Positions 12,445 to 50,814 of a stretch of 62,065 bases of DNA are shown here, in pieces. The position numbers and the translations under genes were made by a program. A model generated the notes under the pieces. The model made no database searches. It was not told the origin of the DNA and saw nothing but the letters and a program-made list of their open reading frames with translations. How positions within the stretch are numbered: position 1 is the first letter of the stretch; the number at the start of each line of letters is the position of its first letter. Source of the DNA: an uncultured bacterium (lineage in GTDB: Bacteria > Acidobacteriota > Thermoanaerobaculia > Thermoanaerobaculales > Thermoanaerobaculaceae); NCBI GenBank assembly GCA_937924755.1, contig CALEVZ010000052.1, forward strand, positions 1 through 62,065, given 5' to 3'.

Positions 12445-14882
12445 CGACGGCCGGCTCGCTCCACCTCGCCCCCCTTGGCGGCGATCTTGGCCTGCGCTGC
12501 GGCCATGGCCTCTGGCGTGGTCTGCGGCTCCCCCGGCCGGTAGCTGTAGTAGGGAAGCTGTTGGGGCCAGGGCAGGCCGAAGAGGTGGTGCCACTCCTCG
12601 GAACAGGGGCCGGGCTCGCGGCCTAGGGGCACCGCCTCTAAGATGACGTACTCACCGCACCCGGGGTTGGCACGCAGGCCGGTGCGGCGGTCCACCGGCA
12701 GCAGGGTAATGCCCGCTGGAATCGGCGGCTCCTCCTCACGGATGAACTCGGGCTGGGACTCCAGGTACGCCTTCATGAACTCGATCCAGGTGGGCAGTGC
12801 TGCCTCGGCGCCGGTCATGTTGCGACCGATGCGCTCCTTCATGTCCCGCCCCACCCAAACCCCCACGGTGATGCGGGGTGAGTAGCCGATGAACCAGGCA
12901 TCGGTGTAGTCGTCGGTGGTGCCGGTCTTGCCGGCCAGGTAACCAGGCAGATTAGCGGCCCTGGCCGCTGTGCCCCGCAGCACGACCCCCCGCAGGACGT
13001 GGTTGGTGAGGAAGGCGACGTCCTCGCGAATCGCTTGGAACGGCTCCAGGCGGTGGGAGTAGATCGGCTGGCCAGCGCTGTCCAGGACCCGGCCGATGAA
13101 AAAGGGCCTCACCCGCTGGCCGCCGTTGGCGATGCTAGCGTAGGCGCCGGTGATTTCCGAAAGCGTCAATTCGAACGACCCGAGGGCCATCGTCGGGTAA
13201 GGGGAGAGCTTTTCGGTGATCCCCAGCCGCCGGGCGACGTCGATGATCGCCTCGCCTGAGGTGAGTTGCTGGAGTTTCACGGCGGAGGCGTTGAGGGAGT
13301 GCTCCAGGGCGTAACGCAACGTGACCATCCCCTCGTAGCGTCGGTAGTAATTGAGAGGAACGTAAGTGAGCAGGCCGCGCTCGTCGGGGAACAGCGCGGG
13401 GCCGTCGAAGATCAACTCGTTGGGGGTGAAACCCCGCTCGAAGGCGGCCACGTACACGAAGGGCTTGAACGCCGAGCCGCACTGCCGCTTGGCCTGGGTC
13501 ACCCGGTCGAATTGGGAACGGTCGAAATCGAACCCGCCGACGTGGGCCAGCACCGCCCCGGTGCGGTTGTCGATGGCCAGCAGTGCACCCTCCACCCGCG
13601 GCTCGGGTTCCAGCGTCACCGACAGCGGACCGTCCGGCAGGATCTTTCCCAGCCGGATCAGGAGCACGTCGCCGCGACGACACAACCGGGTGAGGGAATC
13701 GCGCCCCGTCCAACGGGCATCGGCGAGGGCCAGCGTTGCGCGTCGTCCGGCGATGCGCAACTCGGCGTGTTGGGGGGAAACCTCGCTAACCACGGCGTAC
13801 GCCAACTCCCCCTCGCGCCAGCGCAGGAAGGCCCACGACGGATCGCGCCAGGAGTCGAGGTCCTCGACGCCGTCGGTAACCAGGTTACGGCGGGGCCCAG
13901 GCCACCCCAGGCGGCGCTGCAGCGCCACCAGTCCGTTCCTCAAGGACCTCTCGGCCAGCTCCTGAAGGGCGGGGTCCACCGTGGTTTCCACCACGAGCCC
14001 GCCCTCCAGCATGGCGCGCGTGCCGAACTGCTCCTCCACGGCGCGCCTGGCCACCTCGACGAAATAGTCGGCGGCGGCGTTGCGATCAAAGTGGGGGGCG
14101 GCGCCCAGCGGTGCGGCTAGCGCGGTGCGGTACTCCTCCTCGGTGATAAAGCGCTCGTCGCGCATGCGGGTGAGGGCGTAGTTGCGTCGCGCCAGGGCGC
14201 GCTCGGGGAAACGGATGGGGGACTGGCGGTCGTTGAGCTGGACGATCCCCGCCAGCAGGGCTGCCTCCGGGATGTTGAGTTCGGCGGCCGGCTTGCCGAA
14301 GAAAAAACGGCTGGCCGCCTCCACGCCGTAGCGGCCGTGCCCGAAGTACATCTGGTTGGCGTACATGGCCAGGATCTGATCCTTCGAAAACTTCTGCTCG
14401 ATCTCGATGGCCAGCAGCGCTTCCTTGATCTTGCGCTCCAGCGTCCGCTCCGGAGTGAGAAACAGGGTGCGGGCGAGTTGCTGGGTCAGCGTCGAGGCCC
14501 CCTGGCTGTAGCGCCGGGAGAAGACGTTGCGCACCACGGCGCGCAGGATCCCCTTGGGGTCGAGGCCGGTGTGGGCGAAGAAGCGCGCATCCTCGGAGGC
14601 GACGACGGCCTTGCGGAAAACGTCGGGTATCTGATCGGGGGGCAAGGGAAAGCGGCGCTGCAGCGCCAGGGTGGCGAGCAAGGAGCCGTCGCGGGCGCGC
14701 ACCTGGGTGGCGGCGGCAGGGCGGTAGGTTGTCAGCGCCTCCACCGCCGGCAGGTTCATGAAGCGGGACAGCGCCAGCCCAATACCCGCCCCACACGCCA
14801 CCCCGATGAGAGTTCCCACCGTCAGCCAGCGCACCAGGTAACGCCGCACGGCCGGTACGCTAGCGCGGCGCAACCCCGGCAC
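12441..14882 (-). CDS. Bifunctional penicillin-binding protein (class A)
   Basis: The 813-residue protein has a short cytoplasmic tail, a membrane anchor (about residues 20-41), a GT51 glycosyltransferase domain and a transpeptidase domain. The GT51 catalytic Glu is E97 in ASEDARFF, and [12 protein letters not shown] follows. Transpeptidase motifs are S470-A-F-K473, S-L-N in HSLNASAV and K652-T-G. It polymerises and crosslinks peptidoglycan at the inner membrane. It is intermediate between PBP1a and PBP1b types and I do not assign a symbol. The GTG at 14882 lacks a strong ribosome-binding site, so a GTG a few codons downstream is possible. Confidence 0.93.
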
Positions 14883-14891
14883 GCAACTACA

Positions 14892-14928
14892 GGTACCTGG
14901 TATAGCCGTCTTGTCGATTTCCAGCCCC
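14892..14928 (+). repeat. Dispersed repeat, copy A
   Basis: The core GGTACCTGGTATAGCC is at 14892-14907, followed by GTCTTGTCGATTTCC. It matches the copies at 30616 and 48846 exactly over the 16-bp core, and the copy at 18400 with two mismatches. It lies between the divergent penicillin-binding protein and uvrB genes, 9 nt upstream of the former's start. Confidence 0.75.
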
Positions 14929-25917: not shown

Positions 25918-26529
25918 ATGGAAGGCGGGATGGGCCCATCGCCCATCCTGGAACTCGGCGAGCACACCCTGCCGCTGCACCCGCGGGCGGTGTTCGGGCG
26001 AGATCTCTCTCTCGAAGTGGAGATCGGCAGCGGCAAAGGAAGGTTCCTGCTGGAGTGGGCGGCAGCGCACCCGGAGGTCGGGATCGTGGCGGTGGAGCGA
26101 GCCCGCAAATACCTGCTTCTCGCCGCCCAGCGAGCGGCACGACGGGGGCTCGACAACGTCCGCCTGGTCCACACCACTGCCGAGGACCTGCTTTTTCGCT
26201 GCCTTGCCCCTGCCAGCGTGGCCGCCGTGCACGTCTACTTTCCCGACCCCTGGCCAAAGAAACGCCACCGCAAGCGTCGGTTTTTCCGGCCCGAGAACGT
26301 CTCGCGCGTGGCAGAGGTGTTGCGACCCGGCGGCCTGCTGCGAGTGAAGACCGATCACGCCGATTACGCTGCGGTCATCGGCGAGCTCCTGGCGGCCGAA
26401 CCCCGCTTGGAAAACGCCGACGAGGAAGAGGTCTTTGCGCAGGTGCCAGCCACCCACTTCGAGATCAAGTACGCCCGCGAGCAGCGGCAGGTGTTCCGCT
26501 TCGCGCAACGGCGCGGGGTGAGTCCATGA
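25918..26529 (+). CDS. trmB: tRNA (guanine-N7)-methyltransferase
   Basis: The 203-residue SAM-dependent enzyme methylates G46 of tRNA. The SAM-binding motif is EIGSGKGRFLLEWA, and the family-specific YFPDPWPKKRHRKRR follows, with T-D-H-(A) downstream for substrate binding. The ATG at 25918 is 4 nt after the pfkA stop. The end overlaps larC by 4 nt (ATGA). Confidence 0.94.
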   Translation: MEGGMGPSPILELGEHTLPLHPRAVFGRDLSLEVEIGSGKGRFLLEWAAAHPEVGIVAVERARKYLLLAAQRAARRGLDNVRLVHTTAEDLLFRCLAPASVAAVHVYFPDPWPKKRHRKRRFFRPENVSRVAEVLRPGGLLRVKTDHADYAAVIGELLAAEPRLENADEEEVFAQVPATHFEIKYAREQRQVFRFAQRRGVSP

Positions 26530-27731
26530 GACGAGTGCTCTACCTCGATCCCTTCGGCGGAGCGGCGGGGGACATGCTGCTTGCCGCCCTGCTGGACGCC
26601 GGCGCGGCGGAAACCGAGGTACGTCGGGTGCTGGAGGGCCTTGACCTGGGGGGGTGGCGCCTGGAGATCCGGCGCGATCGCCAGCAGGGGTTTGCCGGCA
26701 CCCGGGCGACGGTGAGCATGGAGGATGTCCGCCATCCCGCTCGTCACTTCAGCGACGTCCAGACTCTGCTGGCCACTGCCTCCGTACCTGAAGGGGTGCG
26801 ACGGCGGGCGCTCGCGGTGTTCGAGTCGCTCTTCCGCGCCGAGGCCGCCGTCCATGGACAGGAGCTGCCTCGGGTGCATCTGCACGAGGCAGGCGCGGTG
26901 GACGCCGTGATCGACATTGTCGGTACCTGCGCCGCGCTGGAATCGCTGCAGGTGGAGCAGGTTTTCTGTGGTCCCGTGCCGGTTGGACGGGGGACAGTGG
27001 CGACGGCCCACGGGCTGCTGCCGGTGCCTCCACCGGCGGTGGCGGAGCTGCTGCGGGGTGTGCCCCTGGCGGCTCATGCCGCCGACGGGGAAATGACCAC
27101 GCCCACCGGCGCGGCGCTGCTGGTGACTCTGGTGAACGCCTGGGGCTCTCCACCCCCTGGGGTGTTGCGTCGGGTGGGAGTCGGACTGGGCACGCGAGTC
27201 CTCGCCGGGGTACCCAACATGTTGCGGGCGCTGGTGCTGGAGCAGTCGGCGGGAGCGGGGGGGGAACGACTGGTAGAGATGATCGAGGCCACTTTAGACG
27301 ATATCACCGGCGAACGGATCGCCTGGCTGCTGGAGCGCCTGCGGGAGGTGGGAGCGTTGGATGCCTGGTGTCTCCCCGGTACCGGGCGGAAAGGACGCCC
27401 AGTCTATGAAATCCGCTCGCTCTGTGAGCCTGAACGGGTGGCCGGGCTGCTGGGCCTGTTGTTCGCCGAGGGTGCCAGCCTGGGAGCGCGGCTGGTGGCC
27501 TGTCGCCGGCCGGAAATCGCCCGCGAAGTTATGGATGTCAAGACCGAGTTCGGCTCGATTCCAGTGAAAATTGGCGTCCATGATGGGGTTGTCGTCTCGG
27601 CCAAGCCCGAGCACGACGCCTGTCGCCAGGCCGCCCGGGCGGCCGGAGTCCCCTTGGCCAGAGTCGAGGACGCCGCCCGGCGGGGGGCACCCCGCCCCGG
27701 AGAGAGCTGGGCCGTGCGCCAGCGGCGCTGA
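26526..27731 (+). CDS. larC: Nickel-pincer cofactor biosynthesis protein LarC
   Basis: The 401-residue protein matches LarC (DUF111), which inserts nickel, in a CTP-dependent cyclometallase reaction, into the pincer cofactor of lactate racemase. Visible segments are LDPFGGAAGDMLLAALLDAG at the start, HLHEAGAVDAVIDIVG, PVPPPAVAELL, TPTGAALL and the C-terminal KTEFGSIPVKIG. No larA, larB or larE is in the window, so its cofactor partners must lie elsewhere if present. It is the last gene of the deaminase-pfkA-trmB-larC run. A frame opens upstream inside trmB but has no homology. Confidence 0.9.
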   Translation: MRRVLYLDPFGGAAGDMLLAALLDAGAAETEVRRVLEGLDLGGWRLEIRRDRQQGFAGTRATVSMEDVRHPARHFSDVQTLLATASVPEGVRRRALAVFESLFRAEAAVHGQELPRVHLHEAGAVDAVIDIVGTCAALESLQVEQVFCGPVPVGRGTVATAHGLLPVPPPAVAELLRGVPLAAHAADGEMTTPTGAALLVTLVNAWGSPPPGVLRRVGVGLGTRVLAGVPNMLRALVLEQSAGAGGERLVEMIEATLDDITGERIAWLLERLREVGALDAWCLPGTGRKGRPVYEIRSLCEPERVAGLLGLLFAEGASLGARLVACRRPEIAREVMDVKTEFGSIPVKIGVHDGVVVSAKPEHDACRQAARAAGVPLARVEDAARRGAPRPGESWAVRQRR

Positions 27732-35737: not shown

Positions 35738-36493
35738 TCAATGGACCCACCTCTTCGGCGGGTCCTGGTCCACCAAACGCATCCGGGGACGCCGGCGCAG
35801 GCGCAGCTGCAGCCCGAGGCGCTCCCACTGCAGCCGGATCCGGCGCCACTGGCCGGGTCCGGAGAGGACCGCGAAGGTGGCCGCCACCGCGGCGCAGACC
35901 CCCGCGAAGCCGGGTAGATCGCGGGTGGAGAGGAAGGCGATGAACGCCACCGCCACCTCGATCCACAAGAACCAGCGGGCCCTGATGGGGAGGATGAAGA
36001 ACAGGAGGATAGTGGCGTCGCCGTAAGCGGTGGCGAAGGCGGCAATCAGGATGGCGAGCAGCATGCGCTGCCCCTGCATGAGGCTGAAGGTGGTCGGGCC
36101 GACCCCGATTAGCAGGGCGACGAGGACAGCCGCGCCGGCGGCGATCACCGTTACCCCCAGCAACACTCGCCAGAAGCCCCTGCGGCCCAGGTGCCAGCAC
36201 ACCTGGTTTCCGAACATGAAAAGGATCAGGAGCTCCAGCAAGAACCACAGGGACGGGGGGCCGTAGCCGGCGAAGGGGTAGCTCACCAGTTGCCAGACGA
36301 AGCCCTGCTGCCAGACCGCCGGGGTGAGCCGCAGCAACGCCGGCAACCAGGCGGTGGGGGCGAAGAACTGCAGGGAGTAGGTGGCGAACAGCACCGCCAG
36401 CAGCGCCACCAGGTGCGGGGCAGGGGGCCCCGTGAGGCCACCGAACGTGGGTCGTACCGGGTACGGCGAGCGGAACGCCATGGCGAGGGCCAT
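35738..36493 (-). CDS. Rhomboid-like membrane protein without catalytic residues
   Basis: The protein of about 250 residues has six membrane helices and rhomboid-like landmarks: WQLVSYPFAGYG, LLELLILFMFGN and a C-terminal basic tail. The GxSG serine motif in the fourth helix and the His in the sixth are not found, so it is probably an inactive rhomboid-like (derlin/iRhom-type) protein. The function is unknown. Two ATGs exist, 36493 and 36481; a TATCAT element at 36492-36497 would make 36481 a leaderless start. Confidence 0.65.
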   Translation of the reverse strand: MALAMAFRSPYPVRPTFGGLTGPPAPHLVALLAVLFATYSLQFFAPTAWLPALLRLTPAVWQQGFVWQLVSYPFAGYGPPSLWFLLELLILFMFGNQVCWHLGRRGFWRVLLGVTVIAAGAAVLVALLIGVGPTTFSLMQGQRMLLAILIAAFATAYGDATILLFFILPIRARWFLWIEVAVAFIAFLSTRDLPGFAGVCAAVAATFAVLSGPGQWRRIRLQWERLGLQLRLRRRPRMRLVDQDPPKRWVH

Positions 36494-36620
36494 GATAGCG
36501 GGTGTCGCCGGCAGGCGACACGGCGTCCCGTGGGCTGCGTGGTTGGAGAAGGCGGCGCGGAGGTTTGCGGGCGCCCGCTCGGCATGTGGCTTGCAGAAAA
36601 AACAGGCGGAGGTTGTGGAG

Positions 36621-38267
36621 ATGAGGTCTCACCATAAAGTTCTGCTCCTGTTCGTCCTCGCCGGGACGACGGCGCATGGGCAGACGCAACAACCCATGTT
36701 TTTCTCCGAAGTTCGCGTCAACAACATCACGGTGGACGTGAAGGTTACCGATGCCGCAGGAGTTCCGGTCACTGGCTTGAAGCGCGAAGATTTCCGCATT
36801 TTCGAAAACGGCAAGCCCCAGGAGGTGACCAACTTCTTCGCGGTGGCCGGGGGTGAAGTGCGGGCCGCCGACGAGCAGGCGGTGATCGGGGCGCCGGCGC
36901 CACGGCGGGTGGTGGTGTTCTTCGATCTCTACCAGATGATCGAGTCCGACAAGCGGCGGGTCGTCGACGCCATGATCGAGCAGGTGGCGGTTGGGTTGCC
37001 GCCGGCGCTGGAGATGGCGGTGGTCTCCTTCGATGGCACCTTGAGGGTGCACACGCCGCCCACCGCCTCAGTCCCCAAGGTGGTGGAGGCGCTCAAGCAG
37101 GTGCGACGCCTGTCGGCCACCGGTCTGCAGCGGCAGATCACCCTGTCGACGTTCAACGTCAACGACATGCGCTACCGCGGCGGCTCACCGTTGGATCCCC
37201 GCTGGCGCTACTCCGACGTGGAGTACCGGCGGGCCCAGAACGCCGAGTACTGGAACATGATGCGGCGCATCGTCGGGCGGGTGGAAAGCGCCTTCACGGG
37301 CGCGCTGCAGCGTTTCGCCGACTCGCGGGCGCGCAAGGTGGCGCTGTTCGTGTCGCCGGGGTATCCGAGGAGCGACAACCTTCCCGTTTATCTCACCTAC
37401 GACATGTGGTCCGAGGCCCCCAGCGAGTATCGGACCTCCGGCATCCTATCCCGCATCGCCTCCCAGGCCGGCGAGCTGGAGTTCACGCTCTTCACCCTGG
37501 ATCCGTCAGGCACCCCCATCGACAACGTGGACGCTAGCCAGAGCGCACGGCCGGCCCTCAACGATGTGGCCAGCGTGTCATTCTGGCGCGAGGCCGATCG
37601 CAAGGACAACCTCATCCGGGCGGCTAAACTCACCGGCGGTGAGGCGATCTTCTCCAGCGACGGTGCGGCGGCCCTGGCCGAGGTGGAGCGGATGACCTCG
37701 AGCTACTACTCCCTCGCTTACCAGCCGGACCACGCCGGGGACGGCAGGCAGTACGACATCCGCGTGGAGGTGGTGGGGCGCCCCGATCTGCGGCTGACCC
37801 ACCGCACCAGCTACGTGGATCGACCCTTTGACGAGCGGGACGCCGAACGGGCGCGGGGGGTGCTGCTGGCCGGCGAGACCGCCAATCCCCTGGGCATCGA
37901 GCTGGTGCTGGACAGGCCGGAGAAGAGCTTCCGTGTGCGCGCCGAGCGCATGCGCACTTACCGCATTGCGGCCGAGGTGCGCATCCCCTACGCCCGCCTG
38001 ACCCTCATCCCCCGGGGGCCCGTCGCCTGGGGACAGGTGCAGGTGGTGGTGCTGGCGGTGGACGGAGAGGGCAACCAATCCGACCTGAGCTTCCGCAGGG
38101 TGCCGATCCAGGTGGATATCAACCAACTGGAGGAGGCTCGCACCCGTGGCTACTTCGCGTACACCCTGACGCTGGAGATGGAGGGCGGCACTCGCTCGCT
38201 GCGTGTCGCCGTGGACGATGTGTTAGGGCGAACCACCTCGACGGTGGTCGCCGACCTGCGGCTGTAA
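36621..38267 (+). CDS. VWFA-related secreted protein 1
   Basis: The 548-residue protein starts at an ATG at 36621 (GGAGG 8 nt upstream) with a signal peptide (residues 1-20). NNITVDVKVTDAAG and VTGLKREDFRIFENG, near the mature N-terminus, are typical of the VWFA-related family described in Acidobacteriota. A von Willebrand A-like domain follows (RRVVVFFDLYQMIESDK through SSYYSLAYQP), though the canonical DxSxS metal site is degenerate. The C-terminal domain is beta-rich and seems Ig-like. The function of the family is unknown; a secreted adhesive or binding role is inferred from VWA domains. A paralogue follows. Confidence 0.82.
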   Translation: MRSHHKVLLLFVLAGTTAHGQTQQPMFFSEVRVNNITVDVKVTDAAGVPVTGLKREDFRIFENGKPQEVTNFFAVAGGEVRAADEQAVIGAPAPRRVVVFFDLYQMIESDKRRVVDAMIEQVAVGLPPALEMAVVSFDGTLRVHTPPTASVPKVVEALKQVRRLSATGLQRQITLSTFNVNDMRYRGGSPLDPRWRYSDVEYRRAQNAEYWNMMRRIVGRVESAFTGALQRFADSRARKVALFVSPGYPRSDNLPVYLTYDMWSEAPSEYRTSGILSRIASQAGELEFTLFTLDPSGTPIDNVDASQSARPALNDVASVSFWREADRKDNLIRAAKLTGGEAIFSSDGAAALAEVERMTSSYYSLAYQPDHAGDGRQYDIRVEVVGRPDLRLTHRTSYVDRPFDERDAERARGVLLAGETANPLGIELVLDRPEKSFRVRAERMRTYRIAAEVRIPYARLTLIPRGPVAWGQVQVVVLAVDGEGNQSDLSFRRVPIQVDINQLEEARTRGYFAYTLTLEMEGGTRSLRVAVDDVLGRTTSTVVADLRL

Positions 38268-38310
38268 GCGGCGAGAGGGCCATTTGCTACACTCCGGCGA
38301 GGAGGCGAGC

Positions 38311-40029
38311 GTGCGCAGAGTGTGGGTGACGGTGCTGGGTGTGGTGTTGGCTGGGGCCTGGCTGACCCTGGCCCAGGAAAAACCCCCCGCCGCTGAACCC
38401 CCCAGGGACCAGGTAGGGGGGTTGCGTTTTATCGACGTGTCTGAGGTGACCATCAAGAACGTCGAAGTGTCCGTAACCGACAAGGAGGGGCGCCCCGTCA
38501 CCGGACTCAAGCGGGAGGATTTCCTCGTCTTTCAAAACGGCGAGCCGCAGGAGGTGGTCAACTTCGCCGTCTATCAGGGGGACACCGTCATCCGCCCCAC
38601 GGAGGGGGACGTGGCGCCCGCCCCCGCGGAGGGGGGAGGGGTGCCGACGCCGGCGCCGCGGGTAGAGGAACGCCGGGAGCCGCGCTTTTTGGTCCTCCTG
38701 GTGGACAACGAGAACATCACCGTGTTCAACCGCAACCGCGTGATCAACCGGATGAGCGAGTGGGTGCGCGAGGCCCTGAAGGAGCCGGACCAGATGATGG
38801 TGGTGTCCTACCAGCGCAGCCTCAAGGTGTTGCAACCCTTCACCTCCGATCCCGAGGACATTGCCTCGGCGCTGCGGACCATGCGCACCTTCGTCGGCGG
38901 CCGCGCCGAGGTCAACACCGCCCGGCGCGAAATCGAGGACTTCATCGCCCAGGACAGCAACAAGACCAACCTGGATCGGGCGCTGGGACAGGCTCGCTCC
39001 TTCGCCCGCGAACAGCGTAACAATCTCACTTTCACGGTGCGCGCCCTGCAGGAGTTCGTGTCGCAGATGGCGGGGCTGCCCGGCAAGCGGGCGATCATCT
39101 ACGTCTCGGACGGTCTGCCCATGACCCCCGGCCTGGAGCTGTTTTACGAGATCCAGGAGCAGTATCGCGACCCCGGGTCCATTTCCCAGTCGCGGGAGTA
39201 CGACGCTACGGCCATGTTCCGCTCCCTGGTGACGAGTTGCACCTCGGCGGGGGTGACGTTGTACACCATCGATGCCCGCGGCCTGCAGTCGGACCTGGGC
39301 ATCGAAGCCGAGAACCGCCAGTCCCGGTCCACCCTGTCCGCCGCCATGACCCGCTCTAACTACCAGGACTCCTTGGTGTACCTGGCGGACCAGACGGGAG
39401 GGCTGGCCATCGTCAACACCAACGACGTGGGTCCGGGATTAAAGCGCATCATGGACGATTTCTCGACGTATTACTCTCTGGGCTATCGGCTGGTACCAAC
39501 GGGCACCGATCGGTTGCACCGCATCGAGGTACGGCTTAAAGGGTACCCGGAGTACCGCCTCAACTACACCCGTACCTTCATTGAGAAGACCCTGCCCACG
39601 CGCATCGCCGATCGCGTCATGACCGGGCTTACCTTTCCCGTGGAAGAGAACCCGCTGGGTGTCGCCGTGAGTACCGGCGAGGCAGCTCCCACCACCGGGA
39701 GCCGCTACACCCTCCCAGTGGAGGTCCGCATCCCCCTGGCCAGCGTCGCCCTCATCCCCGACGGGGAATGGCTGTCGGGGTACGTGATGGTGTATTACGC
39801 GGCCCGCGACGACGAGGGCAAGCAGTCCGACCTGCAGCGCCTGTCTCACGCCATCCGCGTCAAGCCCCAGGAGTACGAGCGGGCGCGCGGCCAGTACTAC
39901 ACCATTAGTGCCTCGCTGCTGCTGGAGGCCGGGCGCTATCGCATCTCCGTGGGGGTGCGCGACGAGCTGACCAACCAGGCGAGCTTCGCCTCCCTGCGGC
40001 GCGAGGTCGGCAGCGTGGGTGCGCGGTGA
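38311..40029 (+). CDS. VWFA-related secreted protein 2
   Basis: The 572-residue paralogue starts at a GTG at 38311 with GAGGAGG 5 nt upstream, and a signal peptide follows (residues 1-20, ending TLAQ-EK). It repeats the architecture of the preceding gene: ITIKNVEVSVTDKEG-like start, VTGLKREDFLVFQNGEPQEV, a VWA-like domain with VLLVDNENITVFNRN, and SDGLPMTPGLELFYE. A conserved ending (STYYSLGYRLVPTG) precedes a C-terminal beta-rich domain. The gap between the two stop and start codons is 43 nt, consistent with tandem duplication and one operon. Confidence 0.85.
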   Translation: MRRVWVTVLGVVLAGAWLTLAQEKPPAAEPPRDQVGGLRFIDVSEVTIKNVEVSVTDKEGRPVTGLKREDFLVFQNGEPQEVVNFAVYQGDTVIRPTEGDVAPAPAEGGGVPTPAPRVEERREPRFLVLLVDNENITVFNRNRVINRMSEWVREALKEPDQMMVVSYQRSLKVLQPFTSDPEDIASALRTMRTFVGGRAEVNTARREIEDFIAQDSNKTNLDRALGQARSFAREQRNNLTFTVRALQEFVSQMAGLPGKRAIIYVSDGLPMTPGLELFYEIQEQYRDPGSISQSREYDATAMFRSLVTSCTSAGVTLYTIDARGLQSDLGIEAENRQSRSTLSAAMTRSNYQDSLVYLADQTGGLAIVNTNDVGPGLKRIMDDFSTYYSLGYRLVPTGTDRLHRIEVRLKGYPEYRLNYTRTFIEKTLPTRIADRVMTGLTFPVEENPLGVAVSTGEAAPTTGSRYTLPVEVRIPLASVALIPDGEWLSGYVMVYYAARDDEGKQSDLQRLSHAIRVKPQEYERARGQYYTISASLLLEAGRYRISVGVRDELTNQASFASLRREVGSVGAR

Positions 40030-42788: not shown

Positions 42789-45700
42789 ATGGCAATAGGA
42801 CAGAGCTCCCTGGCCGAGTTGGCGTCGCGCCACGGCTGGCAATTGCCGGGAGACCCTGCCGCGGTGGCGGCGGTGGATCTGGATACGGCTTTAAGGCTCG
42901 CCCTGCACCTGGCGCGCCTCGAAGCACCGGGGGATCTGGAGCAGTGGCGCCAGGCGCTGTACCGGGAGGGGCGGCGGCGCCTTTTTCCCCAGCGATTCCC
43001 CCCCCCCACGCCGGAGGTGGAGGAGGTGGCTCGCCATTTCTTCCCCCTCGCCGATGCCGTGATCACCTCCCAGGCGCAGCGGGGCGGGGAAGGGATCGCC
43101 GTTCGCTTGCCGTTTCGCCCCTTGGCGGAGGCGGAGTTTACCGGCTGGCCGGCGGCGGACGAGTACGGGCGGCTGCTCGTGGTCCTGGAGCAAGAGGGGT
43201 TGCTGGTCACCCTGGCCATGGCCCAGCAGTGGCTCGGCTTTTCCATTGCCGATCACGTCCTCGGGGTCACCGGGCTGGCGATCCATATCGCCCGCCAGCT
43301 GGCGCGTTCGATTCCGGTGTCGCTGCCGCTGCTGCACGGCGCCGCGATCGGCCACGATGTGGGCAAATTCGGCTGCGTCGGCGATGAAGAGCGACGCATC
43401 CCTCGTCTGCACTACTACTACACCCACCAGTGGTACGAGGCGCGCGGGCTTCCCGGCATTGGGCACATTGCCACCAACCACTCCTGCTGGGACCTGGAGC
43501 GGGTGCGCCTGCCGGTGGAGACGCAACTGCTAATTTACGCTGACTTCAGGGTCAAGGACATGCCCGGCCCGGACGGCACGCCGCGCATGAGCATGATCCC
43601 GCTCAGGGATGCCTTCGCCGCTATACGCGACAAGCTGGAGAATCTGGACCGCGCCAAGTTGCGCCGGTATGAGGAGGTGTACGGGAAGCTGCGCGACCTC
43701 GAGGACTACCTCCTCACCCTGGGGGTGCGGCTGGATCCCCCCGGCTTCGAGGGGCCAGCTCGCGAACGACCTCGCATTCCCGCCGGGCTGGATGTGCTCG
43801 AGGTGATGGCGGGGCGAACTCGCCCCGATCTGGTGGCCCTCGCTACCGGCGGCGAAATCCCCACCGTGGCCCGGCTGTTCTCCACGGCCCACAACATCGG
43901 CGTGATGGAGCGGTTACGCAACGCCGAAACCATGCGCGGCCTACTGGAGGAGGCTCGCTCCTCCGAGGGGTGGCGGGACCTACGCACCTACCTGGGCGTG
44001 CTGGGTGAGTACTCGCCGGCCATGTCCATGGAGCAAAAGGACCTAGCCCTGGAGTTCTGCTTCGAGCTACTGTCCCACCGGGACGACGACATCCGCTACC
44101 ACGCGTCCAACCGGATCGGCGATCTCTTGGGCCTGGAGGAGCGCTTCTGGACCAAGGATCTGCCCGACGGCGTGACGGTGGAGGAGAGTACCTGGGCTTT
44201 GCGCCGGTTGGAGCGGGTGTTCAGCCTCCTGGATCAAGCCCCCGCGGAGCACGAGGAAGACATGGGGGAAGTGGAGAAGGAGCTCTATGCCATCCCCGTG
44301 ATCCTGCGCCGCCTCGTCCGCCGCGCCGAGCCCCAGCTGCGCCGCCAGGTTCTCGCCCTGGTACTGGAGCGGATTCGTGGCCGGCTGGCGGACGAACGGC
44401 CGCTGGTGGGTCTGTACTGCTGCGAGTCGCTGGAGGTCTTGCTGCCCTATTTCGACCAGGTGAAGCATGTGGAGCTGCTGGAGATCGCCCAGGCCTGGGC
44501 GCACCACGAAGCGGTCAATACCCGCCTGATGGCATGGCGGGTGATGCTGGGGGTGGCTCGAGAGGGACTGCAAGCACCGGGCGTGAAGGAGGGTGTGCGT
44601 TACTGCGTTGGCCTGCTGGCCGCCAACGCCCGGGCCGAGGCGCTGGTCGCTGAGCTGTTCCTGCTGGAGGAGCTGGCGCGGCTGGCCGACGCCGTTCCCC
44701 TGGCCGAGCGCTGCCTCGAGCTGCGGGAGGAGGGCCGTGGGGCGGTGCGTGAGGTGATGCTGCGCAACCTCAAGAGCCGGGTCGGCTGGGTGGAAAAGAA
44801 AATCAACTGCGACTATCTGCTCGCCCGGGCGCGGGGGAGGATGGCCAGGGGAGAAGACCCGGAGACGCACTTTGCCAACGAGGTGGCGTTTCACCTGGCC
44901 AACATTTTGAAAGTCAGCCGGGTCGAGGGGGCGCGATTCCACGCCGGGCGCTGTTTGCTGGAGCTGGTACCGCAGCTGTCGGTGCAGCAGCGCAACGACC
45001 TGGCGGTGGAGCTGCTGCGCTCGCTGCAGCTGGATGTGGAGGCGGTGACGCGGTACATCCCGCGGTTTCTGGCGGCGGTCATCGCCACTTTGCCCGAGCA
45101 GGAGTTCATCGAAATCCTTGATGACATCGAGGTGGACGCGCGCCGGGGCTCCGAGGCGTTGCAACGGTTGCTGTTGCAGACGACGGGCTGGCTGTTGCTG
45201 CAGATGCGCCGGGAACAGCTGGACCGGCGAATTCTGCGGCGGCTGGCCGGCATCCTCATGGGGGCGCTGGCGGAGGAGCGCGCCTCCACCGTCCATGAGG
45301 CCCTGGCCCAGGTGGCGATGGTGCTGGATCGCCTCCTGAACAAGGCCAGCGGGGATGACCGCCTCACCCGCCTGTTGGCCCTCACCACCAAGCAGTTCCT
45401 GGCGCTGGTGGCGCACTCCCCCGGAGATCGCGGCCGTTTCTTCCTGGTCGCCTCTGCCCTCAATCACCTGGATCATGCCCTCCACCGGGCCCGTCCGCGG
45501 CCCCGCTTCCCGGTCCGCCGGTCGGTGGCGTTGATGCCGGGGACTTTCGATCCCTTCACCATCGGGCATGGCGAGGTCACCACCCAGGCCTTGAAGTTCG
45601 TCGACGAGGTGCTGGTGCAGGTGGATGACTACTCGTGGCGCAAGCATGCCCAGCCGCGCCGCATCCGCCAGGAGCTGGCTTGGCGGGCGTTGGCGCCGCT

Positions 45701-47621
45701 GCCCGAGGCGTTTCTCTCGCCCATCGAGCCGCCCATCAACATCGCCCGGAGATCAAGTCTGGCCTCCATGTTCCGTCGGTTGCGCGGCCGGCCGGTCAAG
45801 CTGGTGGTCGGTAGCGACGTCCTGGAGGGTGCCTCCGCCTACCGCAGCGCCGAGTCGGCGGTGTGGGACGTTCCCCACATCGTCATCCACCGCCCGGAGA
45901 TGGCCTCCTCTACCTGGCGCGCCAAGCTGTCCCTTTTCCGCGCCGGTGTGGAGGTAGCCACCGTTCCTCCCCGGGTGTCGGCGGTCTCCTCTACGTCCGT
46001 ACGCCAGGCGTTGCGCCGACGGGAAGCGCTGGAAGCGATGTGCGATCCTCTGGTGGCGCGTATCCTCTCGGAGCGCCAGCTCTACCTCAACTTTCCATCC
46101 GCCAAAGAAACCGTCAACGTCCCCCGCCTGCGGGTGGAGATCGTCGCCGGCGACCACATCCCGGCCGTGCTGAGCCATGTGGCCCGGCTGGAAGCCCTCT
46201 CCGCCGGCGGGCGGCGATCCCGCGGCCGGAGTGAGACTCTGGTGCTGTGCGAAGGGGAAAGTGGCCGCCCTCTGGCGGCCTTGAGCTGGACCGAGGTTCC
46301 GGCGGCCGAGCTGCCGGTGGCGGTGAACGATCGCCGGCTCACCCCCCATCTGGACGGGCGTCTTTTGGGGCGGGGAGCGCTGATCACCGCCGTGGCCGCA
46401 GACCGGCCGCCGGCCGAGTGCGCCGCCATCACCCCTTTACTCGCCAAGGCCATGGCGCGCTGGATGGACGCCGGCCTGCTGTTCGCCCTCTTCGGGCTAC
46501 CTCCGCACGACGCCGAGGCACTCGAGGCCTCTCTCATTCAGGCGGGCGCCTCGTGGCTAGCCAGCCCCGCGGGCGACGATCCGGGGACGTTACGTTGGGC
46601 GGCGGTTTCGCTCACGGACCCGCTTTTGCTGCTGTGGGACATGGGGTTCGTGCTGCAGCCGCGCTACGGTGAGGCGCCAACGGTGCGACGGGTGATCGAG
46701 GAAAACCGACGCGCCATCGCTGCCTTCTTCGGCGTTCGGCACCCCGGCGCCGCCCTGCTGCAGGTGCAGGAGCGGGAGGTGAAGCGGGAGGTGGCGGCCT
46801 GGGCGCGGGAGCGACTGGCCAGGGAACGACGGAAGCAGTGGGTGGTTTTGGGCCTCGGGACCTTCTTCGTCCGCGACCTGGTGGGGGAGTATCCCACCAT
46901 TGCCCTGGAGCTGGAGCGATTCCTCACCTGGGAGGGGTACGAGGCCGGCACCCACCCGGCGCCCGGTAGCCCGTCGCTGGAGCTGCAGCTCCACACCGCT
47001 CGCTCCCTGGGCCGGGATGCACTGCTCCTCGCTCCCATCCTCATCGAGGTGGAGCCGCTGCTGGAGGTGGCGGAGGCGGCTCGGGCCGCCGGCGTGCGCC
47101 TGCGCGAGGTGCTGGTGGGCCTGACCTCGGCGTCAGTGCACGCCACCTTGCACCTGAAGGGAATCCGGCACCGCTGCGGGACCATCGTTCCACGCTGGCG
47201 GGGGATACTGCGGGAAAGCGCCGTGGCCCCCTTCATCGGGGGGTGGAACATCCTCGGTCGTTCCCACATGCAGAGCGGCTCGCTGCTGCCGTCACTCAAC
47301 GACTGTCTGCCGTACCACGATCCCCACCCCCTGGGGCTGGACCGCGAGGGAGCTCTGGATTTTTCTCGCCTGGCGCTGGAGCTGACCCGGCGCCTGCTGG
47401 AGTCCATCGAAGAACTCTTCCGGGCGACCGAGGCGCGCTTTTTGAGTCTGCCCGAGATGGGGGCGGTGGTACGCACTCCCCGCTGTCCCCCCCTGCCGGA
47501 GGGGTTCGAGCCGCCCCGTGATCGACTTCCCAGTCAGCTGCTGGCGGAGGATCTGCGCGCTCTGGCCCGCCTGCACCCCGAAACACACGAGGCCCACCGC
47601 ATTCGCTGGAGCGGGCGATGA
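42789..47621 (+). CDS. Giant multidomain protein: HD domain, helical repeats, nucleotidyltransferase, further domains
   Basis: The 1610-residue protein has no signal peptide and is probably cytoplasmic. An HD phosphohydrolase-like domain spans about residues 150-330, with H189-D190 in GHDVGKFG and a second His in IATNHSCW. Residues 350-900 are helical, HEAT-like repeats. Residues 910-1090 form a cytidylyltransferase/NadD-like nucleotidyltransferase: M916-PGTFDPFTIGH927 (the usual HxGH appears as TIGH) and SSTSVR near 1067-1072. Residues 1110-1330 may be a GNAT-like fold and 1350-1560 an alpha/beta domain; both are tentative. It is coupled to the next gene by a 4-nt ATGA overlap. The nucleotide substrate is unknown; an NAD-related role is inferred from the dehydrogenase partner. 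Confidence 0.75.
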   Translation: MAIGQSSLAELASRHGWQLPGDPAAVAAVDLDTALRLALHLARLEAPGDLEQWRQALYREGRRRLFPQRFPPPTPEVEEVARHFFPLADAVITSQAQRGGEGIAVRLPFRPLAEAEFTGWPAADEYGRLLVVLEQEGLLVTLAMAQQWLGFSIADHVLGVTGLAIHIARQLARSIPVSLPLLHGAAIGHDVGKFGCVGDEERRIPRLHYYYTHQWYEARGLPGIGHIATNHSCWDLERVRLPVETQLLIYADFRVKDMPGPDGTPRMSMIPLRDAFAAIRDKLENLDRAKLRRYEEVYGKLRDLEDYLLTLGVRLDPPGFEGPARERPRIPAGLDVLEVMAGRTRPDLVALATGGEIPTVARLFSTAHNIGVMERLRNAETMRGLLEEARSSEGWRDLRTYLGVLGEYSPAMSMEQKDLALEFCFELLSHRDDDIRYHASNRIGDLLGLEERFWTKDLPDGVTVEESTWALRRLERVFSLLDQAPAEHEEDMGEVEKELYAIPVILRRLVRRAEPQLRRQVLALVLERIRGRLADERPLVGLYCCESLEVLLPYFDQVKHVELLEIAQAWAHHEAVNTRLMAWRVMLGVAREGLQAPGVKEGVRYCVGLLAANARAEALVAELFLLEELARLADAVPLAERCLELREEGRGAVREVMLRNLKSRVGWVEKKINCDYLLARARGRMARGEDPETHFANEVAFHLANILKVSRVEGARFHAGRCLLELVPQLSVQQRNDLAVELLRSLQLDVEAVTRYIPRFLAAVIATLPEQEFIEILDDIEVDARRGSEALQRLLLQTTGWLLLQMRREQLDRRILRRLAGILMGALAEERASTVHEALAQVAMVLDRLLNKASGDDRLTRLLALTTKQFLALVAHSPGDRGRFFLVASALNHLDHALHRARPRPRFPVRRSVALMPGTFDPFTIGHGEVTTQALKFVDEVLVQVDDYSWRKHAQPRRIRQELAWRALAPLPEAFLSPIEPPINIARRSSLASMFRRLRGRPVKLVVGSDVLEGASAYRSAESAVWDVPHIVIHRPEMASSTWRAKLSLFRAGVEVATVPPRVSAVSSTSVRQALRRREALEAMCDPLVARILSERQLYLNFPSAKETVNVPRLRVEIVAGDHIPAVLSHVARLEALSAGGRRSRGRSETLVLCEGESGRPLAALSWTEVPAAELPVAVNDRRLTPHLDGRLLGRGALITAVAADRPPAECAAITPLLAKAMARWMDAGLLFALFGLPPHDAEALEASLIQAGASWLASPAGDDPGTLRWAAVSLTDPLLLLWDMGFVLQPRYGEAPTVRRVIEENRRAIAAFFGVRHPGAALLQVQEREVKREVAAWARERLARERRKQWVVLGLGTFFVRDLVGEYPTIALELERFLTWEGYEAGTHPAPGSPSLELQLHTARSLGRDALLLAPILIEVEPLLEVAEAARAAGVRLREVLVGLTSASVHATLHLKGIRHRCGTIVPRWRGILRESAVAPFIGGWNILGRSHMQSGSLLPSLNDCLPYHDPHPLGLDREGALDFSRLALELTRRLLESIEELFRATEARFLSLPEMGAVVRTPRCPPLPEGFEPPRDRLPSQLLAEDLRALARLHPETHEAHRIRWSGR

Positions 47622-48859
47622 CCCTCTACGGCCACGGCCGCGCCGCCATCCTGGGCGACCCCATCACCGCCGAGCGGCTGGGCTGGGGGCCGCGTCCCTC
47701 GGGGCTGCCAGCGCCGGAGATCGTGCTGGAGCCCCGCAGCGGCGATCCCCGGCGCGAGCCCTGGGTGGCGCCGCCCGGCTGGACGCCGCAGCCGGAATGC
47801 GAGGGGCTGTGGGGCAGGGCGGCAGGGGGCGAACATTGGAGCTTTTTGGCCTCGCCGCCAGGGGTGCTCCGCTATCTGGAGCACCTGGCCCGGCCGGCGC
47901 CGGCCTGCGGCGTGGTGGTGGCCATCGCCGGGCTGGGCCGGGTGGGGGGTGTGGCGGCCACCCACCTGGCGGCGACGCCCACTCGAATGTCGGGGGTGCG
48001 GGAGCTTTTGGTGTACGACGTGGACGGTGCCAACCTAGAGCGCTGGTTTTTGGAGCTGTCCTCCATTGCCGTGTGGCAGGAGCACGAACTGCTGCCCAGG
48101 GTACGCCTGACCAGCCCCGAGCAGCTATTCAACGAGTGCGACGTGTTCCTCTTCGTGGCCACCACCGGGGTGCCGCCCCTGGGCACCATGGGCGATGTGC
48201 GCCTGGTGCAGTTGGCCCCCAATCGAGCGCTCTTGAAGGGGTTTCTCGAACAGGCGCGGGCCGCCAACTTCCCGGGCCTATTCCTGGTGGTCTCCGATCC
48301 GGTGGACTGGCTCGCCCAGGCGGCCTTCGTGGACTCCAACAGCGACGCCGCTGGCCACTTCACCGGCAACGGCCTGGCGCCGGAGCGCATCGCCGGTCTC
48401 GGGCTAGGGGTGATGTGGGGAAGGGCCCTGGCCGCGGCACGGCGGGAGGGGTGGCAGGCCCAGGTGGCGGCTCGCGGTGCGGCCTTCGGTCCCCACAGCA
48501 CCGACGTACTGGCCTTCGACGACCTGAATCGGCCGTCGCTCCAGCGCAGCGAGGTGTTGACCCGGGCGGCCCGGGAGTGGAACTACCTGGTACGCGGCCT
48601 GGGCTTTCTTCCCTATGTGGGACCCGGAGTCTCCTCGGTGGGGCTCACCCTGCCGCGGCTGCTGTCGGGAGCTGAATTCCCTGCCAGCGTGTTCCTGGAC
48701 GGTCTGTACTTCGGCTGTCCGGCGCGCGGCCCTGAGGCTCTTCTTCCTGCCGCCCGCCCTGCTGCCCCCGAAGTACGACTCGCGGTGGCCGATCTTTACC
48801 AGCGCCTGATGCACCAGGCCGCCGAATTGAACATGCTTTTCCGCGGGTACCTGGTATAG
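47618..48859 (+). CDS. Lactate/malate dehydrogenase-like NAD-binding protein
   Basis: The 413-residue protein has a 100-residue N-terminal extension and then a Rossmann domain, VVVAIAGLGRVGGVAATHL. VYDVDG, CDVFLFVATTGVPP and VVSDPVDWLAQAAF parallel the LDH/MDH order (NAD motif, acidic ribose ligand, cofactor loop, N-P-V-D). FGPHSTDV occupies the catalytic-His position. It is more divergent than true LDH, and a substrate is not suggested. The start overlaps the giant gene by 4 nt. The end is unusual: the last codons and the TAG stop (GGG TAC CTG GTA TAG) lie inside dispersed repeat copy D. Confidence 0.78.
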   Translation: MTLYGHGRAAILGDPITAERLGWGPRPSGLPAPEIVLEPRSGDPRREPWVAPPGWTPQPECEGLWGRAAGGEHWSFLASPPGVLRYLEHLARPAPACGVVVAIAGLGRVGGVAATHLAATPTRMSGVRELLVYDVDGANLERWFLELSSIAVWQEHELLPRVRLTSPEQLFNECDVFLFVATTGVPPLGTMGDVRLVQLAPNRALLKGFLEQARAANFPGLFLVVSDPVDWLAQAAFVDSNSDAAGHFTGNGLAPERIAGLGLGVMWGRALAAARREGWQAQVAARGAAFGPHSTDVLAFDDLNRPSLQRSEVLTRAAREWNYLVRGLGFLPYVGPGVSSVGLTLPRLLSGAEFPASVFLDGLYFGCPARGPEALLPAARPAAPEVRLAVADLYQRLMHQAAELNMLFRGYLV

Positions 48860-48905: not shown

Positions 48906-49520
48906 CTAACCTGCGGGGCCCCAGGCCCTGGGGATGCGCAGGCCGGGAACCAGGTCCCGCTCCGGGTACACCACAATGGCCACCGGCCGCTCCGGGCAGG
49001 CAGCTTCGCACAAGCCGCAGCCGGTGCAGGCCGCGGGCATCACCACTGGGCGGTGGCCAATCATGCGAATCGCCTCGTCGGGGTAGGGACAGACGCGGAC
49101 GCAGACGTCGCACCCCTCGCCGCGAAAGGTGCGACAGAGGCGCGGGTCCACCTGGGCCACGCCGATGCGCACCAGGCGCGGCGAGCCGGGGTGGATGAGC
49201 GCTCCGGCGGGGCAAGCTGCCGCGCAGGGAACGGCGGTGCACAGCACGCAGGGGGTACGCCCCACCTCTAGGACGGCGATGCGGCGCTGCTGGTCCAGGG
49301 GTGATACGTCGAGACGGATTGCGCCTTTGGGGCAGACCTCGGCGCAGGCGTTACAGCCGGTGCAGGCGGCGAGGTAGCGCTCGTCGGGTTGGATCGCCCC
49401 CGGGGGGCGCAAGAGGACGGGCGGGCGGGGAGAGGTGGCGGTACGAATTCGCCGGTCGTCCTGTCGCCCCATCCCCAGGAGCTGGCGAAAGAAATCTTTC
49501 CGGGACAGGGCGCGGCTCAC
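48906..49520 (-). CDS. Polyferredoxin (NapF/NapG-like, four [4Fe-4S] clusters)
   Basis: The 204-residue protein begins at a GTG at 49520 that overlaps the thiI stop (GTGA). It holds four Cys clusters: CTGCNACAEVCP, CVLCTAVPCAAACP, a CxxxxxxxCDVCVRVCP group, and CTGCGLCEAACP, the arrangement of MauM/NapG ferredoxins. It starts with SRKDFFRQLLGMG, a NapF-type lead without a Tat motif, so it is likely cytoplasmic. It is expected to carry electrons for an unidentified enzyme. Its overlap with thiI suggests a role beside sulfur transfer, which is inference. Confidence 0.88.
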   Translation of the reverse strand: MSRALSRKDFFRQLLGMGRQDDRRIRTATSPRPPVLLRPPGAIQPDERYLAACTGCNACAEVCPKGAIRLDVSPLDQQRRIAVLEVGRTPCVLCTAVPCAAACPAGALIHPGSPRLVRIGVAQVDPRLCRTFRGEGCDVCVRVCPYPDEAIRMIGHRPVVMPAACTGCGLCEAACPERPVAIVVYPERDLVPGLRIPRAWGPAG

Positions 49521-50734
49521 GGTCGCAACCCCCGTGGGGTCAAATTCATGGAAATGGGCCAGGGGGCCGGATCGAGGTGGACGACCTGGGCTTGCCGCTG
49601 CACCTCCCGGGCCCACCGCTCTACGTCCACGTTCGCCTCCGCCGCGGCACAGGCGGCGGCGCTGATGCCGGTGGTGGGGTGACGCGGCTGGAGGAAGGAG
49701 CAGCAGTCAGGGTAGGGGAGGATGGACACCTCGTAGGTGCCGATGCGCTCGGCCAGGTCAACGATCTCTTGCTTGTCCAGGCTGATGAGGGGCCGCAGGA
49801 TGGGCATGCGAGCGATGCGGTCGATGGCCGCCAGGTTGGGCAGGGTCTGGGAGGCCACCTGGTTCAACGACTCGCCGGTGACCAGGGCCTGACAACGCCA
49901 GCGCCGGGCCACCCGCTCGGCTACCCGCACCATCATGCGCCGGTACAGCACCACCCGCAGCGCCTCCGGGCAGGAGGCGACGATGTCCTTCTGACATTCG
50001 CCGAAGGGCACCACGGCCAGGCGGGAGGCGCCCTGGTGGCGATTGAGGAGGGCGACGATCTCCTCGGCCTTGCGCACCGAAGCGTCCCCCACGTAGGGGG
50101 CGGAGTGAAAATGAATGAAGTGAGCGGTAACCCCTCGTTTGAGCGCGAGGTAGGCGGCCACGGGTGAGTCGATGCCGCCCGACAGCAGCACCAGCACCTT
50201 GCCGGAGGTTCCCACGGGCAGTCCACCGGGCCCGGGAACCCGCGCCAGCACGAGATAGATCCCGTCGTCCTGCACGATGACCCGAACCGTGAGCTCGGGA
50301 TTGGCGAGGTTCACCCCCATCCCGGTGCACTCTTCCAGGATTTTCCCCAGGCGACGCTGAATGTCTTCGGAGGTAAGGGGAAAGCGCTTGTTGGAGCGCC
50401 GGCAGCGCACGGCGAAGGTGCGGCCGGTGGCCAGCGTGGCGGCGTGGGCGCGGCAGTAGTCGGCCAAGTCATCGAAGGTGTGGCCGGCATGCGCCACGGG
50501 CCACAGCACGTTCAGCCCGAAAACGGTGCCCAGCCGCTGGCGGACTTCTGGCCAGGGTACGTCCTCGGAAAAGCGGATGGTGACCCGGGCGGGGAGGGAG
50601 ATTTCCGCCACTGGCAGCCCGGCGAGCGCGCGCCTGACGTTCCGCAGCAGGACCCGTTCGAACTTGCCGCGGTGCGCCCCCTTCAAGGTGAGTTCGTGGA
50701 AACCGGCGAGGACGTGCCTGACGTGCTGCTGCAC
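49517..50734 (-). CDS. thiI: tRNA 4-thiouridine synthase ThiI (no rhodanese domain)
   Basis: The protein of about 405 residues has a ferredoxin-like/THUMP N-terminal region (LTLKGAHRGKFERVLLRN) and a PP-loop ATPase with S185-GGIDS190. It thiolates U8 of tRNA and, in some lineages, supplies sulfur for thiamin. The C-terminal rhodanese domain of E. coli ThiI is absent. Instead a C344-C345 pair sits in PYPDCCSFLQPRHPTTG, the pattern of Firmicute-type ThiI. The start is GTG 50734 or 50740; I chose 50734 by homology and a GGGGGTGGGA upstream. Its stop overlaps the polyferredoxin gene. Confidence 0.9.
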   Translation of the reverse strand: MQQHVRHVLAGFHELTLKGAHRGKFERVLLRNVRRALAGLPVAEISLPARVTIRFSEDVPWPEVRQRLGTVFGLNVLWPVAHAGHTFDDLADYCRAHAATLATGRTFAVRCRRSNKRFPLTSEDIQRRLGKILEECTGMGVNLANPELTVRVIVQDDGIYLVLARVPGPGGLPVGTSGKVLVLLSGGIDSPVAAYLALKRGVTAHFIHFHSAPYVGDASVRKAEEIVALLNRHQGASRLAVVPFGECQKDIVASCPEALRVVLYRRMMVRVAERVARRWRCQALVTGESLNQVASQTLPNLAAIDRIARMPILRPLISLDKQEIVDLAERIGTYEVSILPYPDCCSFLQPRHPTTGISAAACAAAEANVDVERWAREVQRQAQVVHLDPAPWPISMNLTPRGLRP

Positions 50735-50788
50735 TCCCACCCCCGAGGGGGAGGGTACCACAGGCCTCTCTCCGGTGGCGCGGTTGCG

Positions 50789-50794
50789 TACAAT
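50789..50794 (+). promoter_or_regulatory. Candidate -10 element for the AtuA-type gene
   Basis: TACAAT lies 20 nt before the ATG at 50815; the leader holds GAAGGGGGGG as ribosome-binding site. The element sits in the 80-nt divergent gap with thiI. Confidence 0.45.
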
Positions 50795-50814
50795 CACCGT
50801 GAAGGGGGGGATTC

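Follow-up and report, generated by a model that had tools for sequence, protein, structure and literature searches.

What does a protein of about 1,600 residues do that combines an HD site with a nucleotidyltransferase, and what links it to the dehydrogenase-like protein encoded next to it? The question is raised by a gene pair in a 62,065-nucleotide stretch of DNA from an uncultured member of the Thermoanaerobaculaceae, referred to here as the window. The coordinates of both genes were confirmed. ORF1 (42789..47621, + strand) is a multidomain protein of 1610 residues, called from the open reading frame list and full-length homologues, and ORF2 (47618..48859, + strand) is an LDH/MDH-like protein of 413 residues, identified from the same list, Pfam and a profile search of the PDB. 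The two frames overlap by 4 nt (47618-47621). No curated family that we met in Pfam or NCBIfam covers the whole length of ORF1 or ORF2. For the pair, Pfam reported CTP_transf_like above its cut-off and HD and Ldh_1_N below theirs, and the NadD and CoaD models of NCBIfam matched ORF1 far below their curated cut-offs.

The HD domain spans residues ~123-310 of ORF1 (43155..43718, + strand), with the HD motif at H189-D190, where a previous reading of this DNA from its letters (the sequence-only reading) had placed it. Residues H156, H189, D190, K193, H208, H231 and D252 are conserved in at least 57 of the 58 aligned ORF1 sequences. In YqeK, an Ap4A hydrolase of S. pyogenes, the di-metal residues are H29, H58-D59, K62, H91, H117 and D135 (PMC11857287), and the HD domain of ORF1 shares this H, HD, K, H, H, D order with near-equal spacing. 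H208 is the likely counterpart of YqeK H91, because H226 is a Leu in six sequences. The domain differs from YqeK in lacking a significant profile match to it (hhalign probability 46% over 38 columns, a weak match), and the DVU_1551 and TIGR00295 HD models fit better. All 32 HD members matched HD-containing NCBIfam models (best, 7e-9), no YqeK model being among those matches, and a search of the PDB with the HD profile returned weak HD matches only. We regard this domain as a predicted phosphohydrolase in which the di-metal residues of the YqeK type are all present, its likeness to YqeK being one of residue pattern.

Two AlphaFold2 models cover the protein, for residues 1-905 (mean pLDDT 88.4) and 885-1610 (pLDDT 85.9). 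The HEAT-like repeats that had been suspected appear in the first as an all-helical solenoid at residues ~356-873 (43854..45407, + strand), and the matches listed in a fold search with this N-terminal model were HEAT/ARM proteins. With the C-terminal model, the matches listed were NadD, including M. tuberculosis NadD 4rpi, which aligned over 183 residues (Z 19.6, rmsd 2.5 A).

The NadD-type adenylyltransferase domain occupies residues ~911-1101 (45519..46091, + strand) and is supported by Pfam, NCBIfam, fold and residues. The nucleotidyltransferase start MPGTFDPFTIGH was found at residues 916-927 and SSTSVR at 1067-1072, both as previously noted, and the site comprises PGTFDPF..H927, D946, W950, K952, R960, G1008/D1010, Y1018, S1067-S-T and R1072. 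P917, G918, D921, H927, D946, W950, K952, R960, D1010, Y1018, S1067, S1068 and R1072 each occur in at least 57 of the 58 sequences, and the (H/T)xGH-type GTFDPxxxxH and SSTxxR motifs are present in 57, with some conservative T/S or T/A changes. Of the label 'NadD/cytidylyltransferase-type' given in the sequence-only reading, the NadD type is borne out by profiles and fold match, and the generic cytidylyltransferase is not. That reading had also held that homologues devoid of substrate-binding residues would speak against a shared system; the ATP- and mononucleotide-binding residues occur in 57 of 58.

Given its NadD fold and motifs, ORF1 might be taken for the lineage's own NadD fused to other domains and serving ordinary NAD synthesis. 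The window protein scored 29.9 bits against TIGR00482, the NadD equivalog model, whose curated cut-off is 112.45; its homologues reached 43-59 bits where reported in a whole-genome search, below the 112-bit cut-off. The base-stacking Trp of NadD is replaced by Tyr in ORF1. Of the 18 genomes tested, 17, including that of the host, encode a NadD distinct from ORF1 that scores above this cut-off, and therefore ORF1 is not the housekeeping enzyme. We rejected this highly improbable explanation.

A different use of the same sites would be reversible protein nucleotidylylation, in which ORF1 modifies ORF2 or another enzyme and the HD domain reverses the modification, in a GlnD-type switch with docking on the HEAT repeats. 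Such a switch would be in keeping with a chain that unites synthesis, HD hydrolysis and a large HEAT scaffold, and with the near-obligate partnership with ORF2 described below. We nevertheless consider it very unlikely, as the acceptor for enzymes of the NadD fold is the phosphate of a small molecule and a protein modifier would have no need for the conserved mononucleotide-site residues.

Two alpha/beta domains follow the NadD-type domain in the model. The first, at residues ~1112-1289 (46122..46655, + strand), has a probable GNAT-like order of elements in the predicted secondary structure, which is its only support; no Pfam acetyltransferase matched it. The second, a PRTase-like Rossmann domain at residues ~1291-1509 (46659..47315, + strand), was recognized from the model and from a phosphoribosyltransferase profile that 15 of 39 sequences matched weakly, at best with E=0.002. 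The acidic pair of the PRPP loop is present in most Bacillota and absent in Acidobacteriota, which makes PRTase activity in ORF1 unlikely, and the domain appears to be degenerate.

ORF2 resembles the L-lactate/malate dehydrogenase family in its N-terminal NAD-binding Rossmann domain. It matched Ldh_1_N with E=2e-5, slightly below the curated Pfam cut-off, and its profile matched lactate dehydrogenases of the PDB over their NAD-binding half with E=2e-12. In the HMM alignment, R195 and N202 correspond to LDH R109 and N115, and D227 takes the place of N140 (SDPVD instead of TNPVD). By motif only, R269 and H293 correspond to LDH R171 and H195, and M266 stands in place of D168. Each of these six ORF2 residues is found in 57 of 57 sequences. 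ORF2 further differs from the family by an additional N-terminal region of ~90 residues, and no member matched Ldh_1_C up to E=10, where divergence may mask a C-terminal domain. With two catalytic residues replaced and the C-terminal half undetected by Pfam, ORF2 is therefore LDH-like rather than a canonical LDH or MDH. The proposed LDH/MDH likeness thus stands for the NAD-binding domain and fails at the two canonical catalytic positions.

A synthase coupled to an HD hydrolase is a common design for messengers. ORF1 could accordingly make and degrade a dinucleotide messenger that signals the redox or 2-oxo acid state; ORF2 would be a dehydrogenase-derived receptor instead of an enzyme, as the loss of the Asp168 and Asn140 equivalents might indicate. 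However, the R109, R171 and H195 equivalents are invariant, suggesting catalysis, and the surroundings of the loci show no conserved gene for a regulator or effector. We consider a signalling role quite unlikely.

To see how far the pair extends, we looked at the distribution of ORF1. It is present at full length, with 54-62% identity, in 12 of 17 genomes of the host's family, and was found neither in 20 genomes of a sister family nor in three class-mates; a sample of the phylum Acidobacteriota added only one further family. Two Lachnospiraceae with full-length homologues (26-28% identity) were recovered by a scan of a genome collection, and a profile search of 398 genomes of their phylum gave seven more. 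In Bacillota, where full-length relatives have about 23-27% identity, ORF1 occurs in 86 of 150 sampled genomes of one order and in 8 of 21 of another, and Acetoanaerobium noterae DSL2 also carries the operon. The conservation of ORF1 among these sequences far exceeds chance. A plasmid-borne system was rejected: tblastn of plasmids returned a single Acetoanaerobium record, which at 2.63 Mb is chromosome-like. Likewise, anti-phage defence was discarded, as ORF1-3 had no PADLOC match up to E=0.01.

ORF2 follows ORF1 closely. Among the 150 genomes of the first order, 83 of the 86 that carry ORF1 have ORF2 too, and all 64 that lack ORF1 are also devoid of ORF2 (Fisher p=2.6e-39). It lies directly downstream of ORF1 in 12 of 12 acidobacterial loci whose contig extends further, and a third gene, ORF3, completes a consecutive ORF1-ORF2-ORF3 series in 46 of 50 Bacillota loci, with intergenic gaps mostly near zero or 4-nt overlaps. 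In G658, G885 and G886, where ORF1 stands alone, ORF2 sits on another contig. The distance matrices of ORF1 and ORF2 correlate (r=0.96 for all sequences, 0.83 for those of Bacillota), and the acidobacterial sequences form a single clade in both trees. The neighbourhood comparison across phyla that the sequence-only reading had called for found the pairing in Acidobacteriota and Bacillota. Restriction to one lineage, which that reading had named as grounds for doubt, did not hold: the pair is not lineage-specific and is conserved across phyla.

The genomes with ORF1 and without ORF2 number three. ORF1 is incomplete in two of them (G747 and G843). The third, G811, encodes the one exception to the conservation described above (L127), which has lost all seven HD residues together with the NadD nucleotide motifs. 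This single natural case ties both predicted catalytic activities of ORF1 to ORF2. The operon, co-occurrence and joint decay are direct observations, as are the domains and conserved sites. Of the earlier proposal that the pair handles a NAD-like cofactor, the genetic link to the dehydrogenase is strong, in view of co-occurrence and joint decay, and the NAD-like nature of the product and its use by the dehydrogenase are what we infer.

ORF3 shares an FMN_red domain (E=2e-21) with the NADPH-dependent FMN reductase family and was found in Bacillota only. It differs from that family by an additional N-terminal domain and four invariant cysteines (C-x2-C-x4-C-x8-C), which suggest an Fe-S cluster; its profile had no match in the PDB at E<=0.001. 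ORF3 was not detected in the window or at the other acidobacterial loci, so it is probably not essential for the core function. Neither this Fe-S-type flavoprotein gene nor the loss of the two canonical LDH catalytic residues had figured in the sequence-only reading.

The neighbouring genes differ between clades. In 17 of 50 loci, chiefly in one clade, genes of iron-sulfur L-serine dehydratase are no more than three genes upstream; a FAH-family gene occurs in 10 loci, and a PPDK/PEP synthase regulator (L058) and LutB (L056) are single cases. Several of the encoded proteins relate to pyruvate or lactate, which is suggestive only. In the two Lachnospiraceae (L038 and L039), larB and larC lie upstream of the operon; larC is also present in the window. 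These genes could make ORF1 an accessory for the nickel-pincer nucleotide cofactor of lactate racemase, supplying NaAD to LarB. LarC, however, was found in 29 of 86 genomes with ORF1 and 19 of 64 without (p=0.72), and this barely conceivable link was rejected.

The FAH-family and serine dehydratase genes close by, together with the complete YqeK-type residue set, would also fit metabolite damage control. ORF1 would then make pyridine dinucleotides and proofread or destroy faulty ones, and ORF2 and ORF3 would repair or remove a redox cofactor that has been damaged, or a toxic adduct of a 2-oxo acid arising at the pyruvate node. In mycoplasma, YqeK fused to NadD hydrolyses NaAD, NaCD and NaUD (PMC9426524), which lends this explanation support. 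It is possible, if on the unlikely side: proofreading alone leaves the strict need for ORF2 unexplained, and with housekeeping NadD being a protein of its own, it is hard to see why a second one should be proofread.

Found together across distant phyla, the pair looks like an undescribed cofactor or metabolite-control system. Our tentative preference, plausible rather than secure, is that ORF1 and ORF2, joined in Bacillota by ORF3, act as one system, in which ORF1 both synthesizes and hydrolyses a dinucleotide of the pyridine type for ORF2. ORF1 can probably build and break a NAD-like dinucleotide and would be a bifunctional enzyme of synthesis and hydrolysis, carried on a HEAT scaffold. The NadD-type domain would couple ATP with NaMN, NMN or a related mononucleotide of the pyridine type, giving a dinucleotide, and the YqeK-type HD domain would hydrolyse that product or faulty versions of it. 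ORF2, with its altered catalysis, may bind the dinucleotide as a cofactor or act on it, its partner being a 2-oxo/2-hydroxy acid, and the flavoprotein ORF3 may give or take electrons in anaerobes. The system would work near the pyruvate/lactate/oxaloacetate node. Substrate, product, direction of the reaction and the role of ORF2 are proposals of this scheme. In its favor we counted the co-occurrence and gene order, the conserved HD and NadD residues with their joint loss in G811, the NadD fold, the HD model matches, the separate NadD, the mycoplasma precedent and the pyruvate- and lactate-related neighbours (serine dehydratase, PPDK regulator, LutB); the Trp-to-Tyr change, the weak YqeK profile similarity, the clade-variable neighbours and the absence of ORF3 from acidobacterial loci were counted against it.

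A bolder version is that the product is a dedicated, previously unknown cofactor or messenger of the pyridine dinucleotide type, distinct from NAD(P), with ORF1 as the protein that makes and breaks it and with ORF2 and, in anaerobes, the Fe-S flavoprotein ORF3 as its users, in at least two phyla and over half of the genomes sampled from one order of Bacillota. We offer it as a speculation that is more likely wrong than right. If true, it would mean a new cofactor or messenger, and if NAD editing is true instead, a large and common system of cofactor repair. In either case, a protein of ~1600 residues with predicted dinucleotide-forming and -cleaving sites, almost always tied to an altered LDH-like partner, is widespread in anaerobic Bacillota and one acidobacterial family. 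As A. noterae is a species with a cultured strain, the operon is directly testable.

No description of the ORF1 domain combination was found in our search of open-licence PMC papers, and two known arrangements come close. The DVU_1551 family NTP transferase (NF045665) also joins a nucleotidyltransferase and an HD domain in one chain, and among NCBIfam models its HD part gives the best match to all 32 HD members; the match is confined to that part, with the window protein scoring 16 bits against a curated cut-off of 315. The nearest experimental precedent is the mycoplasma NadD-YqeK proofreading fusion (JCVISYN3A_0380; PMC9426524), alongside the nadD-yqeK operons of Firmicutes. There, too, a NadD-type adenylyltransferase and a di-metal HD diphosphatase share a chain or an operon, with the same catalytic residue patterns as ORF1. 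The fusion model NF005519 (cut-off, 315 bits) was not reached by the window protein (12.5 bits) or by L038 (44.3 bits). The mycoplasma fusion is far smaller, serves ordinary NAD synthesis, and has no HEAT solenoid, PRTase- or GNAT-like domain, LDH-like partner or flavoprotein, whereas ORF1 carries its HD domain at the N-terminal side, distant from the NadD-type domain, in genomes that have a NadD of their own.

Some homologues of ORF1, the large protein with HD phosphohydrolase, HEAT solenoid and NadD-type adenylyltransferase domains, were degenerate or split. L127, from genome G811, is of normal length, and both its HD and its NadD catalytic residues are gone; that genome lacks ORF2, the LDH/MDH-like gene. 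L127 is a degenerate copy that may be structural or decaying. ORF1 was found in two frames in contig C75 of genome G839, where in-frame stops interrupt it, and in contig C26 of genome G872. These split genes may be pseudogenes or assembly errors.

Two of the records that carry ORF1 appear to be mislabeled. The 2.63-Mb record of Acetoanaerobium noterae, NZ_CP154629.1 (L059), is labeled as a plasmid (pTPELB2) and is probably a chromosome. The contig JALOQY010000036.1 (L030) is placed in the Planctomycetota MAG Prado167, and its ORF1 is 56% identical to acidobacterial ORF1; the genome is probably misnamed or misbinned.

In the window, two large adjoining ORFs (36381-40029), similar to each other in sequence, look like VWFA-domain proteins of a type common in Acidobacteriota. 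Genes for a 4Fe-4S ferredoxin-like protein (48906-49616, minus strand) and the tRNA 4-thiouridine synthase ThiI (49517-50797, minus strand) are convergent to ORF2. An ORF with LarC1 and LarC2 domains (26055-27731), which belong to nickel-pincer cofactor biosynthesis, lies 15 kb upstream of ORF1; LarC was rejected as a partner, as co-occurrence revealed no tie to ORF1.

Among the loci, L053 alone has a short gene (14678-14920) 3′ of ORF3, the four-cysteine flavoprotein gene. The start of its predicted product (MIMPF...DVIIADLT) resembles that of a nucleotide-binding TIR-like or nucleoside-deoxyribosyltransferase-like protein.
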